Shown: positions 7,580 to 61,928 of the stretch, one piece after another
Layout: the number at the start of each line of letters is the position of its first letter
Numbering within the stretch: the first letter of the stretch is position 1
NCBI GenBank assembly: GCA_028871345.1
Contig: JAGWNK010000018.1
Coordinates: forward strand, 1 to 64,000
From: Alphaproteobacteria bacterium
GTDB lineage: Bacteria > Pseudomonadota > Alphaproteobacteria > Micropepsales > Micropepsaceae
Direction of reading: 5' to 3'
Length of the DNA: 64,000 bases
Position numbers and translations under genes: made by a program
Notes under the pieces: generated by a model
Database searches by the model: none
What the model saw: only the letters and a program-made list of their open reading frames with translations
Told to the model about the DNA's origin: nothing

Positions 7580-8944
7580 TTATAGCAGCATGGCCGCCGG
7601 TTCTTCGACGAATTGCTTGAACACCTGGAGGAACCGCGCCCCCGTGGCGCCGTCGATGACGCGGTGATCGCACGACATGGTGACGTTCATCACGGTGGCG
7701 ACCTCGACCTTGCCGTCCTTGACGACGGCGCGCTGTTCGCCGGCGCCGACCGCCAGGATGCCTGCATGCGGCGGATTAATGACCGCCGTGAAGTGTTTGA
7801 TTCCGAACATGCCGAGGTTGGAGATGGCAAAGCTGCCGCCTTCGTATTCCTGGGGCTTCAGCTTCTTGGCGCGGGCCCGCTCGGCCAGCGACTTGACCTC
7901 GTTGGAGATCGCCGCCAAGCCCTTCTCCTCGGCCCGGAAGACGATGGGCGTGATGAGGCCGAAGTCGAGCGCCACCGCCACGCCGACATCGGCGTGCTTG
8001 TGGCGCAGCACGGCGCTCTCGGTCCAGCTGGCATTGCATTCGGGGACCCGCATCAGAGCCAGCGCCGCGGCCTTCACCAGGAAGTCGTTGACCGACAGCT
8101 TGTAAGCCCCCTTCGGCGCAGCTTCGTTGAGGCGGGCGCGGGCCTCCATCAGCGCATCGATGCGGCAGTCGATCGTCAGGTAGAAATGCGGGATCAGCGC
8201 GGTGGCGGAACTGAGACGCTTGGCGATGGCCTTGCGCATCGCGTCATGCGGGATCTCGGCATAGTCCTCGGGCTTGTAGTAGACGCGCGCGTCGGGCAGC
8301 GGCGCGATGCCGCCCTTCGAAACGCTCGCTTCCACCCGCTCCTCAGGGTGAGGGGCTTTGACGGGAGCGGCGCCCGGCTTCGCGTTCTCGACATCGGCCT
8401 TGACGATGCGGCCGCGCGGGCCTGAACCGGCAACGGCTGCAAGATCGACGCCGTTCTGCTGCGCGATGCGCCTGGCGAGCGGCGAGGCGAAGATGCGGTT
8501 CGTTCCTGCAAGAGGGACGCTCGGCGGAGCCGAGCGGGTGGGGGGTGTTGGCGAATTCTGAGGCGATTTGGACACACCCCCCGCCGAAAAATCGCTGCGC
8601 GATTTTTCCGCCTCCCCCTCTAGGGGGGAGGCACCTGCCGATGCCGTCACGGCCGCCTTGATCGAACTCATGGCAGACGAGATGTCGGGCACGGCGGCGC
8701 CGCCCTCGCCCGACAAAACGGCGATCGGAGCGTTGACCTTCACGCCTTCGGTGCCTTCGGGGACGAGAATCTTCTCGATGCGGCCTTCATCGACCGCTTC
8801 AAACTCCATGGTGGCTTTATCGGTCTCGATCTCGGCGAGGATGTCGCCGGACTTCACTTCGTCGCCCTCCTTGACCAGCCACTTGGCGAGCTTGCCCTCC
8901 TCCATGGTGGGAGACAAAGCAGGCATGAGGATTTGCGTCGACAT
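7580..8944 (-). CDS. pdhC: Dihydrolipoamide acetyltransferase, E2 of pyruvate dehydrogenase
   Basis: 454 residues. It moves the acetyl group from lipoate to CoA and forms the core of the complex. Order: lipoyl domain (residues 1-80, lipoyl lysine in [11 protein letters not shown]), a long linker, the peripheral subunit-binding domain ([17 protein letters not shown]), a second linker, and the catalytic domain ending in [16 protein letters not shown] with the active-site His. The two linkers are unusual: residues about 104-145 and 198-211 are encoded by copies of intergenic palindromic repeats (separate entries) that stay in frame. ATG 8944 shares its first base with the GFA stop (TGATG). A longer reading to 9109 is rejected because the lipoyl domain starts exactly here and matches that of pdhB. 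Confidence 0.95.
8313..8353. repeat. Palindromic repeat of the CCTTCGA...CTCAGGGTGAGG type, inside pdhC
   Basis: This 41-bp stretch starts CCCTTCGAAACG and ends CTCCTCAGGGTGAGG. It matches from memory the interspersed repeat that alphaproteobacterial genomes carry in hundreds of intergenic copies and that, when translated, gives PHPEERSEAS-like peptides. Here it reads [14 protein letters not shown] within the second linker of E2. It keeps the frame and adds about 14 residues between two folded domains. Confidence 0.7.
8510..8634. repeat. Modular palindromic repeat inserted in frame in pdhC
   Basis: About 125 bp made of CTCCCCCTCTAGGGGGGAG, an AT-rich perfect palindrome (AAAAATCGC, TGC, GCGATTTTT at 8587-8607), a GGCGGGGGGTG block and a GGCTCGGC palindrome. 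The same architecture recurs between genes at 9354, 46499 and 57732. Here it is translated as the linker between the lipoyl and subunit-binding domains of E2 (starts [14 protein letters not shown], ends [11 protein letters not shown]), with no stop codon and no frame loss. Confidence 0.75.
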
Positions 8945-9348
8945 CAATGGACCTCGAGGGGCTTCAGTTCGACTGCGTGCTGTTCCCAATGTTCGCCGTC
9001 GAAGGCAGCGACGTGCACGGCTTTGAACTCCCGCGCGTCCAGACAGCGGAAGTTCACGGAGTAGCCGTCGGGATGGGAGCGCGGCACGTAGAACGACTTG
9101 ATCCCGCATACCGAGCAGAACAGGTGCTTGGCGATCTTGGTGTTGAATTCATAGGTGGTCAGCGCGCCGGCGCCCGACAACAGGCGGAAGCGCTCTTTCG
9201 GCACGATGAGGTGCAGATAACCGGTCCTGGCGCACATCGAGCAGTTGCAGTCGACCAGCTCGACCTCGTCGGGCGCCAGCACTTCAAACGCGATCGCGCC
9301 GCAATGGCAGCCGCCGCGGTGCCAGGACAGGTCGGAAGCAATTGCCAT
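8944..9348 (-). CDS. GFA/CENP-V domain zinc protein
   Basis: 134 residues of the glutathione-dependent formaldehyde-activating-enzyme (GFA/Mss4-like) fold. The expected metal-binding cysteines are present: [12 protein letters not shown] near residue 13, [10 protein letters not shown] near 35 and [15 protein letters not shown] near 75. Most members have no proven activity, so a role in formaldehyde handling should not be assumed. It lies between pdhB and pdhC; its TGA overlaps the pdhC ATG by one base, so it is translated from the same mRNA and probably coupled. This location inside the PDH operon is unusual. Confidence 0.85.
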
Positions 9349-9353
9349 CAGGC

Positions 9354-9488
9354 GCTCCCCTCACCTGCCCCTTTTGGGGAGGTCGAAATGCGGAGCGTTG
9401 CGAAGCATTTCGGGTGGGGGGCCGTCACCGCCGCATGCTCCCTACCCGACGCGCTGCGCGCGCCGGCCTCCCCGCAAGCGGGAGGTGA
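9354..9488. repeat. Modular palindromic repeat between pdhB and the GFA gene
   Basis: Same family as the element inside pdhC. It begins CTCACCTGCCCCTTTTGGGG, has a long stem (CGAAATGC paired with GCATTTCG at 9383-9411), a GGGTGGGGGG block, a GACGCGCTGCGCGCG palindrome and ends CTCCCCGCAAGCGGGAG. It fills nearly all of the 169-bp gap and, as RNA within the PDH transcript, would fold into several strong hairpins that could affect mRNA stability or relative expression. Confidence 0.75.
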
Positions 9489-9517
9489 AGCAAGAAGACG
9501 AGCGCGGCAGCACATCG

Positions 9518-10912
9518 TCACGGCCGGTAGCAAACCGCTTTCGCCGCTTCGATCACGTCCTCGACCGAGGGCAGCGCCAGCTTCTCGAGATTGGCAGCAT
9601 ACGGCATCGGCACGTCTTTGCCAGCGACCTTGGCAGGCGGCGCATCGAGATAATCGAACGCCTGGTCGACCACCTGGGCGGCGATCTCGGAACCGATGGA
9701 GCAGATCGGCCAGCCCTGCTCGACCGTCACCAGACGGTTCGTCTTCTTGACGGACTCCACGACGGTCTGAGTGTCGAGCGGGCGCAAGGTGCGCAGGTCG
9801 ATGAGCTCCGCCTCGATGCCCTCCTTCGCCAGCGCTTCCGCCGCCTCCAGGATCAGACCGATGCAGATCGAATGGGACACCAGGGTGACATGCTTGCCCT
9901 GACGGATGACGCGCGCCTTGCCGATGGGCAGCACGAAGTCGTCGAGCTTCGGCACCGGGAAGGAGCGGCCGTAGACGATCTCGTTCTCCAGGAAGATCAC
10001 CGGATTCTCGTCGCGGATGGCGGCCTTCAGCAGGCCCTTGGCGTCGGCGGCGAAGTACGGCGAGATCACCTTGAGGCCCGGAACGTGTGCGTACCAGGAG
10101 CTGTAGTCCTGACTGTGCTGCGCCGCGACGCGCGCCGCCGGCCCGTTGGGGCCGCGAAACACGATCGGACAATGCATCTGGCCGCCGGACATGTAGCGCG
10201 TCTTGGCGGCGGAATTGACGATCTGGTCGATGGCCTGCATTGCGAAGTTCCAGGTCATGAACTCCACGATGGGCTTGAGCCCGCCGAAGGCGGCGCCGAC
10301 GCCGAGGCCGGCAAAACCATGCTCCGTGATCGGCGTGTCGATCACGCGGCGCTCGCCGAACTCGTCCAGCAGGCCCTGACTGACCTTGTAGGCGCCCTGG
10401 TACTGCGCGACTTCCTCGCCCATCAGGAAGACCGTGTCGTCGCGGCGCATCTCTTCCGCCATGGCGTCGCGCAAGGCTTCGCGCACCGTCATGGTGACCA
10501 TCTCGGTACCTTCCGGAACACTTGGTTCCGCCAGCGCGGGCCCGGCAGCAGGCGTGCCGGGAGCCGCGTGGCCATTGGCCTTGCGCGTTTCCGTCTCGCC
10601 CTTGGCCTGAGCCTTGGTCTCGGCGCGCGGCGCCTTGGCGCTCGATGCAGCCGCCGGCGAAGCTTCGCCGCCTTCCTGGATGAGCTCGGCGATAGGCGCA
10701 TTCACCTTCACGCCCTCGGTGCCTTCTGGCACGAGCAGCTTGCCGATGCGCCCCTCGTCGACTGCCTCAAATTCCATCGTCGCCTTGTCGGTCTCGATCT
10801 CAGCCAGGATGTCGCCGGACTTGACGGCGTCACCTTCCTTCACCAGCCACTTGGCGAGCTTGCCCTCCTCCATGGTCGGAGACAGGGCGGGCATGAGGAT
10901 CTGCGTGGACAT
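9518..10912 (-). CDS. pdhB: Pyruvate dehydrogenase E1 beta subunit with N-terminal lipoyl domain
   Basis: 464 residues, longer than the usual 325 because a lipoyl domain (residues 1-80) and an Ala/Lys-rich linker precede the E1-beta fold that begins near [19 protein letters not shown]. Beta subunits with their own lipoyl domain are known from alphaproteobacteria such as Sinorhizobium and Zymomonas. With PdhA it decarboxylates pyruvate using thiamine diphosphate and acetylates lipoate. The lipoyl domain differs from that of PdhC at only three of the first 75 positions. Its ATG shares one base with the pdhA stop (TGATG), implying coupled 1:1 synthesis. Confidence 0.95.
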
Positions 10913-11922
10913 CAGGCGAACACGTCCGTGGTGAGCTCGGAAACGTCGGGCTCCGGGCTTTCGATGGCGAATTCGGCCGCCATGTTGACGGTCAGGCGGA
11001 TTTCCTTGTCGATGGCCTTCAGCTCGTCTTCCTTGATGATGCCCCGCGCCACCAGCCGCTGGCCGAAATGCTCGATCGGATCGCGCCGCTCGCGCACAGA
11101 CTGCACTTCCTCGCGCGTGCGGTACTTGGCCGGATCGGACATGGAATGGCCGCGGTAGCGGTAGGTTTTCATCTCAAGGATGATCGGTCCGTTTCCGCCG
11201 CGGCACCATTCGACCGCCTTGCTACCGGCGCCGTAGACCGCCTCGACATCCATTCCGTCCACTTCCTCGCCCGGGATGTTGAAGGATTCTCCGCGCTTGC
11301 AGAAGCGCGGCTCGGCGCTCGAGCGGCTGACGCTTGTGCCCATGGCGTACTGGTTGTTCTCGATAATGTAGATGACCGGCAGATTCCACAGCTTCGCCAT
11401 GTTGAAGCTTTCGTAGACCTGGCCCTGGTTGGCGGCGCCGTCACCCAAATAGGTCAACGTCACCGCGCCGTTGTTCTTGTAGCGGTTGGCGAAGGCGAGC
11501 CCGGTGCCCAGCGGAACCTGGGCGCCGACGATGCCATGTCCGCCATAGAACTGCTTCTCGGCGGAGAACATGTGCATCGAGCCGCCCTTTCCCTTGGAGT
11601 AGCCTGAGGAGCGGCCTGTGAGTTCGGACATTACGCCCTTCGGGTCCATGCCGCAGGCAAGCATGTGTCCGTGGTCGCGGTAGGCGGTGATCACCTGGTC
11701 GCGCGGCTCGATGGCGGCCTGCATGCCGACCACGACGGCCTCCTGACCGATATACAGGTGGCAGAAGCCGCCAATGAGCCCCATGCCGTAAAGTTGGCCG
11801 GCGCGCTCTTCGAAGCGACGGATCAGGAGCATGTCCGAATAGAACCGCTTGAGCTGTGCGGGACTCGGGGTCGGTCCGGCGTTGTTTACACCGGCTACAA
11901 CAGCCATTTTCGGTTCGCTCAT
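10912..11922 (-). CDS. pdhA: Pyruvate dehydrogenase E1 alpha subunit
   Basis: 336 residues. The thiamine diphosphate and Mg2+ site is visible as [20 protein letters not shown] ending in IIENN, and the mobile loop as [20 protein letters not shown]. It partners PdhB. ATG 11922 (MSEPKMAVV) is preferred over an in-frame start at 11979 because the conserved part begins soon after and the extra residues are low-complexity. First gene of the block pdhA-pdhB-GFA-pdhC-DUF3667-lpdA, all on the minus strand with overlaps or short gaps; ftsB lies 120 bp upstream. Confidence 0.95.
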
Positions 11923-58786: not shown

Positions 58787-58885
58787 GGCCCTCTCCCCTT
58801 GCGGGGCCGGTAGCGGCAGCGTCACCGGCGGCGGTTCGCCTTGCGGTTCACAGCGCGGACCGCTTAGGCGAACCGGGTGAGGGGT
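58787..58885. repeat. Palindromic repeat before the DUF559 gene
   Basis: CCCTCTCCCCTTGCGGGG at one end, CGAACCGGGTGAGGGGTAAAG at the other, with nested stems (GGCGGTTCGCC at 58829-58839 and a second GGCGAACC at 58868) between. It looks like a relative of the CTCCCC...GGGTGGGG family found elsewhere in the window. It reaches to within a few bases of the DUF559 start and may supply its ribosome binding site (GTGAGGGG). Confidence 0.6.
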
Positions 58886-58891
58886 AAAGCG

Positions 58892-59287
58892 ATGAAACAT
58901 GACTTTGCCCGCCAACTTCGCCACGCCCGGACCGATGTCGAACGTAAGCTCTGGTTCGCGCTGCGCGGCCGCCGCTTCCACCGCTTCAAATTCCGCCGCC
59001 GGCAGCCGACTGACTCCTATATTGTCGACTTCGTCTGCTTCGAGACGAGACCTGTCGTCGAACTCGACGGCGGCCAACACGGTGGGAAAGGTCATCAAGC
59101 CTATGATGCAGACCGCACGAGGCACCTGAAAGCCAACGGCTTCCGGGTTCTTCGCTTCGCCAACCATGAGGTCAACCCGAACTTCGAAAGTGTCCTTGAT
59201 GGCATTGCTCTGGCGATCGGGTTGCCGATTTGGGCGGGGGCTCGTCCTTCCTCCCCATGGTATCGCTCACGACAGCGGGCACGCTAA
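58892..59287 (+). CDS. DUF559 endonuclease-domain protein (Vsr-like)
   Basis: 131 residues of the very-short-patch-repair-like fold. HARTDVERKLWFALRGRRFH is the typical first helix pair, and the active-site pattern D...ExDGxQH is present (IVDFVCFETRPVVELDGGQH). Such proteins are common, often near mobile DNA, and their role is unproven; nuclease activity is inferred. ATG 58892 is used, GTG 58877 is an alternative. Surrounded by palindromic repeats on both sides. Confidence 0.85.
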   Translation: MKHDFARQLRHARTDVERKLWFALRGRRFHRFKFRRRQPTDSYIVDFVCFETRPVVELDGGQHGGKGHQAYDADRTRHLKANGFRVLRFANHEVNPNFESVLDGIALAIGLPIWAGARPSSPWYRSRQRAR

Positions 59288-59312: not shown

Positions 59313-59386
59313 GCCCCCCTCACTCTCGGAAGTGCTCGCGACGCTCGCGCTTCCTCTGCCCTCTCCCGCAAGGGGAGAGGGCGACC
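59313..59386. repeat. Palindromic repeat after the DUF559 gene
   Basis: CCCCCCTCACTCTCGGAAGTG, a GCTCGCGACGCTCGCGC core and CCCTCTCCCGCAAGGGGAGAGGG with a strong 8-bp stem (59359-59380). Related to the repeats at 58787 and 61406. Confidence 0.6.
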
Positions 59387-59549: not shown

Positions 59550-60572
59550 ATGGCCAACATACTGCTGACCAACAAATGCGTCCGTGCCTGCCCTTACTGC
59601 TTCGCGGGCCAGGAGATGGCGCAGGCCAGCGCCTTCCTGTCTTGGGAGAACGTCGTCTATCTCGCGGATTTCCTGCTCGCCTCGGCGCACAGCCGCGTCT
59701 CGCTGCTGGGCGGCGAGCCGACCCTGCATCCGCAGTTCACCGACATCCTCGTCTATCTCCTCGAGCGCGGCTTCACCGTCACCGTCTTCACCAGCGGCAT
59801 CATGTCGAAGACGGCGCTCACCGAGCTGGCGGCGCACGTTGCCGCCCTGCCGCCCGAGCGGCTCAATTTCGTCTGCAACCTGAACAATCCGGCGCAGACC
59901 GACACCCTGAAATCGGAAACGCACAAGCTGCACGATTTCCTGGCGGCGCTCGGCCCGCGCACCATGCCGGCCTTCAACATCTACCGCAGCGATTTCGACA
60001 TCGGCTTCATCTTCGAACTCGTTGCGCGCTTCGCCATGAAGAAGCGCCTGCGCCTGGGCATCGCCCACCCCATCCCGGGCGCCGCCAACGAGGCCATCAC
60101 CGTGGCCGACATCGGCGCGGTGATCGAGCGGCTCTGTTCGTTCCGCGCCGCCTTCGAGCAGTCGCGCGTCCGCCCCAGCTTCGATTGCGGCTTCCCGCTC
60201 TGCCGCATCACCGACGCCGAGCTCGGCTGGCTCGTGCGCCTCACCGGCCGCGCCGATTTCAAATGCACGCCGGCCATCGACATCACGCCCGACATGCAGG
60301 TGTATTGCTGTTTCCCGCTGTCGTCGCTCAACCGGCGCTCGATCTACGATTTCGACTCCTTCAACGCCGTGGTCGCCTATTACCGCTCGCTGCAGGAACG
60401 CATCCGCGGCGACATCGCCGGCATCTATGCCGAATGCGGCGCCTGCGTGCACCGTGCCGAGCGCACCTGCGCCGGCGGCGGCGTCTGCCAGCTGGTGAAC
60501 CGCCTGACCAACGAGAACCCCGCCCGGCTTCGGACCATCGAGAATGAACACCAGGCTTGTCTGCCCCAATGA
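59550..60572 (+). CDS. Radical SAM protein with SPASM-type C-terminal Cys clusters
   Basis: 340 residues. The [4Fe-4S]-SAM motif CxxxCxxC is Cys10, Cys14, Cys17 in TNKCVRACPYCFAG; LLGGEPTLHPQF follows. The second half has Cys239, Cys253, Cys254 (FKCTPAID...MQVYCCFPL) and Cys296, Cys299, Cys307, Cys313 (ECGACVHRAERTCAGGGVC), the arrangement of SPASM domains with auxiliary clusters seen in peptide-modifying enzymes such as AnSME and PqqE. The N terminus lacks the usual extension; the motif starts at residue 10. The next gene overlaps by 29 bp. The substrate is unknown and no precursor peptide is visible beside it. Confidence 0.88.
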   Translation: MANILLTNKCVRACPYCFAGQEMAQASAFLSWENVVYLADFLLASAHSRVSLLGGEPTLHPQFTDILVYLLERGFTVTVFTSGIMSKTALTELAAHVAALPPERLNFVCNLNNPAQTDTLKSETHKLHDFLAALGPRTMPAFNIYRSDFDIGFIFELVARFAMKKRLRLGIAHPIPGAANEAITVADIGAVIERLCSFRAAFEQSRVRPSFDCGFPLCRITDAELGWLVRLTGRADFKCTPAIDITPDMQVYCCFPLSSLNRRSIYDFDSFNAVVAYYRSLQERIRGDIAGIYAECGACVHRAERTCAGGGVCQLVNRLTNENPARLRTIENEHQACLPQ

Positions 60573-61395
60573 TGCGGCCCTGATCGGGCGGCTGGCGCGC
60601 CGCGCACTGTGCGTCCGCGTAACCGCGCCGCAGGACATCGCGGCCGCTGCGGCGCTGGCGCGCCGGCACAACAGCCTCGTCTGCGTGATCTGCGAGACCG
60701 CCTCTCTCGAGGACATCGAGGTTTCCGGCGACTGGCAGGGCATCCCGATCGCGCTGGCGGTGGCGCGGACGGGCCCGTTCCGCCGCCTGGCGGCGAAGCT
60801 GAAAGGGCTGCGCGCGCTGAATCTGCGTGTCTATCTGCCCTGCACGACCGACGCCCTGGTCGGCGCGCGCCTGCTCGCCTCGGTCGGCGTTCCCGTGTGC
60901 GTCACCCTCGATCCCGCCGCGGCGATGGATTGGGAGGCGCTGGCCGATCTGATGACCTACGCGCTGTTGAATATCGCGCGCCACGCGCCGATCGAGCCGT
61001 TCCAGACCATGGCCGACGGCTGGCGGCCGGCGGAGCGCGGCGAGGACTGGGGCCGCGCCCTGTTCGACGATCCCGAACGCTACCTCCATGTCGCGGCCTC
61101 GGGCGCCGTCGCTTTGTCGGCGCGCGAGCTGGCCGCGGGAGAATTCGTCGGCGACGTCTGCGAGCTGGATTCGCCGCGCCTGAAACAGCGCGTGGACGAG
61201 AGAAAAGAGCGCTGGCGCGAGCTGTTCCTCGAAAACCATTTCTGCGCCCGCTGCCCGTCCTGGCGCCTGTGCCGCGGGAGATTTTCCGCCGGCAAGACAG
61301 AGCCGGACGGCTGCGCGGAATTCTTCGGCGAAGCGGCCGAGATCATCGAACGCGCCCGCGCCAAATCCGCCCGCTCTCCGACTTGGCAGGCGTGA
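60544..61395 (+). CDS. Partner of the radical SAM protein; SPASM-like Cys cluster without SAM motif
   Basis: 283 residues. No CxxxCxxC is present. Residues 80-150 look like alternating beta/alpha units of a half-barrel (LRVYLPCTTDALVGARLLAS, GVPVCVTLDPAAAMDWEALA). The C terminus carries Cys234, Cys237, Cys243 and Cys257 (NHFCARCPSWRLCRG... DGCAEFF), resembling half of a SPASM domain and probably binding an Fe-S cluster. It reads as a degenerate relative of the upstream enzyme that lost SAM chemistry. A role as substrate-binding or electron-transfer subunit is inferred from the 29-bp overlap. No homologue recognised. Confidence 0.65.
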   Translation: MNTRLVCPNDAALIGRLARRALCVRVTAPQDIAAAAALARRHNSLVCVICETASLEDIEVSGDWQGIPIALAVARTGPFRRLAAKLKGLRALNLRVYLPCTTDALVGARLLASVGVPVCVTLDPAAAMDWEALADLMTYALLNIARHAPIEPFQTMADGWRPAERGEDWGRALFDDPERYLHVAASGAVALSARELAAGEFVGDVCELDSPRLKQRVDERKERWRELFLENHFCARCPSWRLCRGRFSAGKTEPDGCAEFFGEAAEIIERARAKSARSPTWQA

Positions 61396-61405
61396 ACTGC
61401 GATCA

Positions 61406-61468
61406 GCCTCTCCCCTTGCGGGCCTGCCGCGCATCGTGCGGTCTTTGCCCTCTCCCCTTGTGAGAGGT
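61406..61468. repeat. Palindromic repeat after the radical SAM locus
   Basis: CCTCTCCCCTTGCGGG at one end and CCCTCTCCCCTTGTGAGAGG at the other, enclosing GCCGCGCATCGTGCGG. Same CTCTCCCCTTG module as in the repeats at 58787 and 59313, so three relatives bracket the DUF559 and radical SAM genes within 2.7 kb. Confidence 0.6.
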
Positions 61469-61928
61469 CTCAGTTTAGTAAGATTTTGATATTATGCACT
61501 TCTTAGGCATCTTTTTTGCCTGTGTAGATGCTGTACAGGATTTTTCGACGTTTTTGCCAGATTCCAACGTGATCGGACGATTCATTCAAGGGAGTTCTGT
61601 CACGCGGCCTTTGTGCGGGAACGAGAATTTGCCGGAGCATTCCGTCTGCCTACCAGGTACGCATTGCCACATCGACACGCCCTCAGTCCGTCAGGACCGA
61701 AGAGGCCCCATATGCGTCCGAGCGTTTTCGCCCTTATGGCGGATGTCCGCCAGATTTGGCTCAGGAAACATCGGTCAATCTCCCCGACGATCCTCTCAGC
61801 GCAACTCTGGCCATCGCTATTCGAGGCGCAGATGCGTTCTCAGTTCGCCGATTCTTGGGGTATGCCATCCGAACCAGCTTTGCTTTCTCTTGCAGCCATC
61901 ATTTGCCGCGAGGGTCGCCTCGGAGCGG
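61469..61928. other. AT-richer gap without a supported gene
   Basis: About 460 bp. The first 100 bp are unusually AT-rich (runs such as GGCATCTTTTTTGCC at 61508-61522, a small hairpin with T-tract that could terminate the radical SAM transcript). From 61600 on several plus-strand frames are open but mutually overlapping and without family features; possibly decayed sequence. Confidence 0.4.

Follow-up and report, generated by a model that had tools for sequence, protein, structure and literature searches.

The 64,000-nucleotide stretch of DNA analysed here (the window; positions 1 to 64,000, forward strand, of contig JAGWNK010000018.1 in the alphaproteobacterial assembly GCA_028871345.1) contains two overlapping genes, A and B, which encode a radical S-adenosylmethionine (rSAM)/SPASM enzyme and a partner protein that is predicted to share its type of fold. 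In other genomes these genes occur together with two further genes, C for a second rSAM/SPASM enzyme and S for a Tyr-repeat protein, and the genome of the window carries C and a candidate S on another contig. We are highly confident that S, A, B, and C form one system. Our overall reading, a dispersed four-gene protein-maturation system that makes three-residue cyclophanes with B as a docked relay, is in our judgment probable, and for the cyclophane chemistry on S in particular we consider the chances about even.

Conservation of A, B, C, and S at one locus

Homologues of A were collected by a genome-wide scan, the query being A aligned to a relative (32%) encoded on a Chlorohelix plasmid. Of 329 confirmed loci the best 80 were used, which is not a census; in the nearest of them, a phmmer search with B located B shortly downstream of A. 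Searches with a B profile added further loci: in the phylum to which the Bacteroidales genome of L009 belongs, 4 of 345 genomes were positive (its own counted; two of the four matched in part only), and in that of the Syntrophaceae genome of L049, 8 of 345 (those of L049 and L030 counted; two of the eight were weak, with E of 5e-9 and 7e-9). Loci with A above 400 bits are referred to as close loci (n = 19, the window counted), and those with A below 400 bits served as weaker-A control loci (n = 69; L015, L030, and the window's own duplicates excluded). The B, A, and C profiles were built partly from loci that were later counted, and the locus labels rest on those profiles; in the A profile, the rows of L006 and L011 end, and the row of L009 begins, inside the called open reading frame (ORF). 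Since ORFs were called mechanically, their starts and overlaps are approximate.

B adjoined A in 18 of the 19 close loci, the exception being L005, where only 96 bp of contig follow A, and was not found in the 69 weaker-A loci. C was present within the stretch in 15 of the 19 (all except L005, L105, L014, and the window) and S in 17 (all except L014 and the window). The contig of L105 stops at B; a second contig from this genome, L106, starts with exactly its last 141 bp and runs to C; S, A, B, and C therefore form one locus there. The leader motif of S was detected in 14 of the 19 close loci versus none of the 69 weaker-A loci, and an ORF containing 11 or more Tyr per 40 residues in 14 versus five. 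Adjacent A and B overlapped by 4–47 bp in 15 of 18 pairs, and the start of B in the window, on which its 29-bp overlap with A depends, is backed by homologues whose starts lie near the same position. The overlap reported by the sequence-only reading, an earlier inspection of the window from its letters alone, was confirmed, and translational coupling of A and B is probable.

C and S in the genome of the window

When the C protein of L049 was used as query, the genome of the window gave a near full-length match of 47% identity on contig C100 (C100:41111-42202, E = 8.2e-124). The candidate S directly upstream (Table 1) has a leader containing GRRAALKRIAF; an AxA site (AWA) follows, and then six repeats of approximately GYGVSGDYSDS. 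The identity of this S is supported independently by its place beside C, by its leader motif, and by genome G644, which suggest that it is the counterpart of the S proteins elsewhere. G644, which was found with B, has the A, B, and C closest to those of the window's genome among the fetched sequences (59%, 49%, and 59% identity), and its S carries the same GYGVSGDY repeat.

The sequence-only reading had described a radical SAM/SPASM gene with a cluster-only partner, and the ORFs, the motif CVRACPYC in A, and the four-Cys end of B bear this out. Its statement that no substrate is visible holds for the window and fails for the genome, where a candidate S lies beside C on C100; the right object is the four-gene system. 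Its further proposal, a heteromeric maturase with a substrate that is a protein or is encoded elsewhere, gains support from the adjacency of A and B in 18 of 19 close loci, from the predicted rSAM/SPASM-type fold of B without a SAM-cluster site, and from the putative S with C on the other contig. Neither of the two findings that it had named as refuting turned up: the distinct B sequences all lack CxxxCxxC, and close homologues of A do adjoin B. It missed the second rSAM/SPASM enzyme C, to which B may be tied as much as to A.

Several observations weigh against one common system with S as its target. The S proteins were partly chosen by leader motif or Tyr density, so that their shared features arise partly by construction. 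With a laxer threshold (at least 8 Tyr, same strand as A, no more than 3.5 kb away), 16 of the 69 weaker-A loci also scored; Tyr-rich neighbours are therefore not unique to close loci. In L014, A and B are present, the fetched stretch contains neither C nor S, and B lacks the Cys cluster; L030 has A, C, and B and no S was found in its genome. The S of the window's genome was recovered in the S profile search with E = 1.5e-24 by a profile that contained this very protein, so that the E-value is not independent, and a search of the genome with the S of L011 did not detect it by sequence. Finally, A–B and S–C are on different contigs in this genome. A split caused by contig ends was considered and rejected, since 5.8 kb remain between the end of B and the end of contig C80 (67,174 bp) and 16.4 kb between C and the end of C100 (58,616 bp).

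It could be asked whether A and B have some other, unrelated target, S and C being an independent maturase–substrate pair. The separate contigs, which place the two pairs at least about 22 kb apart, would suit such independence, as would two loci with relatives of B and C (L121 and L122) in which no A was found within the fetched 10.8 and 11.0 kb. On the other hand, the four genes stand together in most close loci, the A, B, and C of the window's genome share one closest fetched relative that also shares the S repeat, and searches of relatives of this genome gave no match to B (99 searched, E 1e-3) or A (60 searched, E 1e-12) and only far weaker matches to C (99 searched). We therefore regard two independent pairs as very unlikely and retain the single four-gene system.

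Predicted nature of the A, B, and C proteins

Pfam assigned A to Radical_SAM (49 bits, E = 9.9e-13, cut-off 29.5), and NCBIfam gave only sub-threshold rSAM models among the best 25 of its 48 matches. Beyond the general radical SAM/SPASM domains, none of the NCBIfam or Pfam models listed for A, B, or C attained its cut-off. A has Cys at positions 10, 14, 17, 109, 196, 213, 218, 239, 253, 254, 296, 299, 307, 313, and 337; in 12 aligned sequences, Cys 10, 14, and 17 and the late C213, C218, C239, C254, C296, C299, and C307 are invariant. Its predicted model (predicted local distance difference test score, pLDDT, 78.1; predicted template modelling score, pTM, 0.80) was compared with known structures by VIA-align, which returned anSMEcpe (Z 20.6 over 284 residues, root mean square deviation (rmsd) 3.2), SuiB (Z 20.6), ChlB (Z 19.0), and SkfB (Z 17.5), so that rSAM/SPASM structures were matched across most of A. 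Together, the SAM motif, the auxiliary Cys, and the SPASM-type predicted fold identify A as a radical SAM/SPASM enzyme.

C matched Radical_SAM in Pfam (57.2 bits) and passed the general SPASM model TIGR04085 (35.6 bits, with 27 needed). Its best specific NCBIfam models, among the best 25 of 59 matches, were DynA, sulfatase maturase, DarE, DarW, AmcB, YhhB, and GrrM, and every specific model listed was far below its cut-off; filing C under DynA or GrrM was rejected for this reason. By sequence, C is a canonical rSAM/SPASM maturase that appears to lie near the cyclophane-forming and sulfatase-maturase group.

BLASTP found no similarity between A and B. B had no Pfam or NCBIfam family match at E up to 1, and a sequence search of the PDB returned nothing but beta-glycosidases at E of about 0.1. 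These matches are at chance level, and B as a beta-glycosidase or other barrel enzyme was rejected. An AlphaFold model of B, made with 12 sequences, had a pLDDT of 88.7 and a pTM of 0.87. VIA-align placed the radical SAM protein ChlB first (Z 13.4, 264 residues, rmsd 4.2), followed by the sactipeptide enzyme 5why, anSMEcpe, TigE, SuiB, SkfB, and AbmM; ranks 1–13 were all rSAM proteins, the first unrelated fold had Z 6.9, and ranks 16–18 were again rSAM proteins. AbmM and anSMEcpe are radical SAM enzymes. The result of Foldseek alone counts against this assignment, as it gave no match at E ≤ 1e-3, AbmM being the best at 3.7e-3. The model indicates that B has an rSAM/SPASM-type fold, a partial TIM barrel with a SPASM-type end, minus the SAM-cluster site. 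The L030 homologue of B matches the SPASM model below threshold (TIGR04085, 21.8 of 27 bits).

CxxxCxxC was absent from all of 22 distinct B sequences, two of which are short (the window's own copies were dropped, as was a 47-residue piece in L106 that repeats the end of L105), and no partner homologue with a full rSAM site thus came to light among them. The Cys cluster of B, C234-x2-C237-x5-C243-x13-C257, is kept in 21 of the 22 as C-x2-C-x5-C with a further Cys 10–17 residues on, and is lost in L014. Enzyme C has Cys at 12/16/19, 77, 84, 162, 250/256/272, 315/318/324/328, and 346, and the 234/237/243/257 spacing of B resembles its 315/318/324/346. The latter set is presumably the auxiliary cluster II (AuxII) set as in anaerobic sulfatase maturases. 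Because of this resemblance in spacing, B is read as an AuxII-only relic that seems to have kept the AuxII-type cluster site and lost the SAM cluster and auxiliary cluster I (AuxI).

The most conserved motif of B is HAPIEPF, in which P152 and F153 are invariant and H147, A148, and E151 nearly invariant in 12 sequences. Since this motif is as conserved as the Cys, B might catalyse a reaction by itself, with HAPIEPF at the centre of an active site in the barrel, and not act as a relay or dock. This is highly improbable in our view: B matches no known enzyme family, its PDB sequence matches are at chance level, its strongest fold matches are rSAM enzymes, and in two loci a B of only 153–154 residues retains a HAPIEPF-like motif and the four-Cys cluster. 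These short forms look as if the HAPIEPF part and the cluster were what matters, and we keep to B as a relay or dock.

Tyr-rich S proteins and the spacing of their residues

In 17 of the 19 close loci, and at S–C in the window's genome, the layout is that of a ribosomally synthesized and post-translationally modified peptide, with a putative leader-and-core precursor beside a maturase. Among 19 S leaders, 14 had an exact RRxAxKR, two KRxAFKR, one RREALER, and two RREAIKM. Against the twin-arginine model TIGR01409 (cut-off 16.7 bits), the S proteins of L105 and L010 scored 16.5 and 15.5 bits, and the S of the window's genome, which was taken from its second codon in the NCBIfam search, was not listed. 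The cores are rich in Tyr, as in NYTNYANYTN, YSRYNRSYYNY, YSDYYDYSD, and GYTSGYTS. Two of the S proteins have an Lcl domain at the C-terminus (Pfam Lcl_C, scoring above its cut-off), which suggests that they may be surface proteins. These are found in L107 (4269-5144) and L108 (5160-6131), where a Tyr-rich segment is joined to the domain as in a collagen-like adhesin.

Motif statistics were computed for 18 of the 19 cores, the S of L008 being excluded as cut by the contig end. These cores contain 8–54 Tyr. Tyr-x-[NDRS] occurred 351 times versus 191 (standard deviation 9) in shuffled cores, none of 500 shuffles reaching 351, and exceeded the core's own shuffled mean in 17 of the 18. At i + 1 of Tyr, Asn and Asp were not enriched (64 versus 77), and at i + 3 Asn, Asp, Arg, and Ser were depleted (131 versus 189). 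The commonest residues at Tyr + 2 were Ser, Asn, Tyr, Arg, and Asp, and the core of the window's genome has six Tyr-Ser-Asp. Since Tyr-x-(Asn/Asp/Ser/Arg) spacing fits links between residues i and i + 2, cyclophanes are the reading that we prefer. In the accessible text of PMC11002830, rSAM enzymes are described to form such i/i + 2 links between Trp and Asn or Arg (XncB), Trp and Asn or Asp (OscB), Tyr and Asp (YxdB), Tyr and Arg as well as His and Arg (YhhB), Phe and Ser (MscB), and His and Ala (HaaB).

The strongest hint to the chemistry comes from the W-x-N proteins of L121 (5346-7929) and L122 (2333-4933). Both are rich in Gly and carry an RR leader, and their cores contain Trp only as part of W-x-N (11 of the 12 Trp in L121 and 7 of the 8 in L122, the leftover Trp being in the leader). 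Each lies beside relatives of B (40 and 38 bits) and C (163 bits each). Because A was missing from the fetched stretches, B travels with C without A in these loci. Conversely, L043 of Eubacterium (8001-10937) and L065 of Lachnospiraceae (7965-10838) have relatives of A and C next to a protein with YSDYMYSDYMYSD repeats (YSDYMYSD) that also has hydrophobic stretches, and B was not found there. These partial sets suggest that A, B, and C could in part replace one another within a wider theme. Repeat proteins of the YSNYSNYSN and WNNW type were also seen near A and C relatives in L055 (4604-5536) and L059 (7101-7886).

The spacing data do not all fit cyclophanes, and the following points lower their weight. 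Asn, Asp, Arg, and Ser were also enriched at i – 1 (271 versus 194) and i – 2 (228 versus 191), partly because Tyr recurs at every third residue. No single residue rules at i + 2: Tyr-x-Asn was up in 12 of the 18 cores, Tyr-x-Ser in six, and Tyr-x-Arg in four. The repeats arose by duplication and are not independent, so that shuffling overstates the significance; the i + 2 statistics are a spacing tendency, not a probability. The six Tyr-Gly-Val in the S of the window's genome and Tyr-Val-Ala in L105 fit poorly.

The same four genes might modify Tyr in another manner, by Tyr–Tyr or Tyr ether links, by epimerization, or by a mark for GT9-type glycosylation. Tyr–Tyr spacings of 1–4 residues are common and would permit Tyr–Tyr links, and rSAM/SPASM folds span many reactions. 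A separate GT9-type gene was in the stretch in 7 of the 19 close loci (with a model built from four such genes), and C is fused to a GT9 heptosyltransferase-like domain in L120 (4696-6792, by Pfam) and, judged from length and sequence, also in L006, L117, and L119. The genome of the window gave no GT9 match at E 1e-3, however, and glycosylation is therefore optional at most. The bias to Asn, Asp, Ser, and Arg at i + 2 and the W-x-N sister substrates favour cyclophanes, and we consider a different Tyr modification rather unlikely.

Proposed mechanism and comparison with known systems

What the analysis shows directly is that the genes are conserved and occur together, that the folds are predicted and the Cys patterned as described, that S adjoins C in the window's genome, and that residues at i + 2 are biased. 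The scheme below assumes cyclophane formation; that the enzymes form a complex, act on S, and make this bond is inferred, as are the way S is exported and what B does. S would be made in the cytoplasm, where its RRxAxKR leader would serve as an export signal and probably also as a docking element that recruits the enzymes. C and/or A would form 5'-deoxyadenosyl radicals, A perhaps acting on other positions of S, and the ring of a Tyr (i) would be bonded to the beta-carbon of residue i + 2 (Asn, Asp, Ser, or Arg) to give a row of three-residue cyclophanes along S. Docked B would be a scaffold and a shared electron relay, since the oxidative step would return electrons via auxiliary clusters. 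The stiffened S may then be exported, perhaps by the twin-arginine translocation (Tat) pathway, with cleavage after AxA. For PapB, the accessible text of PMC10470005 argues that intermolecular electron transfer is needed, likely via the second auxiliary cluster. On this account a detached, AuxII-only B would fit a relay or dock. The role of auxiliary clusters is called 'largely enigmatic' in the same text (PMC10470005), and the putative AuxII-type-only partner B would offer a natural test of their function.

Triceptide enzymes, which form three-residue cyclophanes (XncB, OscB/GrrM, MscB, YxdB, HaaB, and YhhB), are likewise SPASM rSAM enzymes acting with aromatic-x-residue spacing, as far as the accessible text of PMC11002830 describes them. 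They differ in that the scores of C fall far short of the cut-offs of the models listed for this group (bits/cut-off: XyeB 70.0/450, GrrM/OscB 84.7/310, FxsB 71.8/370, YhhB 88.5/445, AmcB 105.8/425), and in that the present system has a long, apparently exported repeat protein and two rSAM enzymes with a dead rSAM partner. To our knowledge, the characterized cyclophane-forming rSAM enzymes act mostly on short precursors.

The His-Xaa-Ser system (HxsA-D) is alike in having a repeat protein with paired rSAM enzymes, but the repeats here contain Tyr and not His, C reaches 50.9 bits against the HxsB cut-off of 370, and B had no match to the Hxs models in NCBIfam. Dynobactin and darobactin are short antibiotic peptides, and their maturases are among the best NCBIfam relatives of C (DynA 152.8, DarE 120.5, and DarW 116.5 bits), but C does not meet their cut-offs of 450–650. 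The TIGR04347 pseudo-SAM/SPASM proteins are, by the name of the model, SPASM proteins without a radical SAM site and thus similar to B, although B does not match the model.

Another likeness is the rSAM system with Cluster 41, which has an rSAM gene beside a precursor of repeated motifs and for which a Tyr-Arg cyclophane is thought predictable; it differs in combining a single rSAM enzyme with an Fe/alpha-ketoglutarate oxidase, and the accessible part of its description contains no dead rSAM partner. In the accessible text of PMC9062424, one precursor consists of TVGG repeats, and cyclophanes are considered likely for several precursors with aromatic-Asn motifs and for one that repeats Tyr-Asn-Arg/His-Asn-Arg. 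Precursors of the repeat type and of the Tyr type are therefore already known in themselves, to the extent covered by that text. The full-text literature searched, outside which most subscription papers lie, yielded no account of an rSAM system for Tyr repeats or of an rSAM partner with AuxII only, and the four-gene S/A/B/C system is apparently undescribed.

As apparent targets, exported Tyr-repeat proteins could be a new route to a stiff or redox-active surface protein. We put forward, tentatively and with some doubt, a bolder version: a three-subunit rSAM machine, with its relay cluster in a separate dead paralogue, would close successive Tyr-x-x units of an exported repeat protein into a stiff series of cyclophanes, giving an encoded stapled fibre or surface material that has spread horizontally among distant bacteria and is produced here from two unlinked gene pairs.

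Distribution and origin

B was not found at E 1e-3 in 99 relatives of the window's genome, 59 of which belong to the same genus, and among 299 genomes of its phylum it was found in one, the genome itself. A was likewise absent from 60 relatives at E 1e-12, and at 1e-15 the 299 genomes of the phylum yielded only the genome itself. At 1e-20, C matched four of the 99 relatives with 83–170 bits versus 578 bits for the genome's own C, and these four are taken as other rSAM enzymes. Because the relatives searched gave no match to A or B and only weak matches to C, and because the S repeat is shared with G644, the distribution points to a horizontal gain. A plasmid search with B gave no match at E 0.1, and a scan of viral contigs with A gave none that was confirmed.

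Other features of the window and of related loci

The coordinates of the genes and motifs are given in Table 1. The guanine-plus-cytosine (GC) content of A–B is 0.65–0.69, like that of the upstream DNA, and drops to 0.57–0.61 only downstream; a mobile island around A–B was rejected, the GC of A–B being normal. The interspersed repeat that brackets the locus has 12 matches in the genome at ≤ 2 mismatches versus two for the reversed control, four of them in the window and four on contig C45. The bracketing noted by the sequence-only reading is thus real in its four window copies, while its hint at accessory DNA is not upheld, as this is a small repeat family and not evidence of mobility. A promoter scan of the region found no promoter.

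Table 1. Positions of the genes, motifs, and neighbouring features (window coordinates unless contig C100 is named).
Feature	Position	Strand	Description
Gene A	59550-60572	+	radical SAM/SPASM enzyme, 340 aa; by Pfam Radical_SAM and predicted fold
SAM-cluster motif CxxxCxxC of A	59577-59600	+	CVRACPYC, residues 10-17
Gene B	60544-61395	+	putative pseudo-rSAM/SPASM partner, 283 aa; without CxxxCxxC
A/B overlap	60544-60572	+	29 bp, from ORF coordinates
HAPIEPF of B	60982-61002	+	residues 147-153; most conserved motif of B
Four-Cys cluster site of B	61243-61314	+	C234, C237, C243, C257
Gene C	C100:41111-42211		rSAM/SPASM enzyme
Gene S (candidate)	C100:40699-41049		116 aa; 61 bp upstream of C
Terminator-like hairpin 3' of B	61519-61539	+	weak; 1 found versus 1.5 expected by chance
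DUF559 gene 5' of A	58877-59287		Pfam, 126 bits
Interspersed repeat, 16-17 bp	58789-58805, 59365-59381, 61406-61422, 61448-61464		four copies in the window

Two further observations were made in related loci. L118 (7628-10067) has tandem C paralogues, the second of which has CHEVP in place of the CHGGC of the SPASM end. More distant A relatives, many of them in Chloroflexi, adjoin proteins with a Cys-rich tail, e.g. CGSPIPAGAVCTCNCV...HYWYPN; such neighbours were seen in L002 (7001-10542) and in L016, L019, L020, L022, L023, L026, L032, L034, L037, and L064, and are likely to be another substrate class of the A family.

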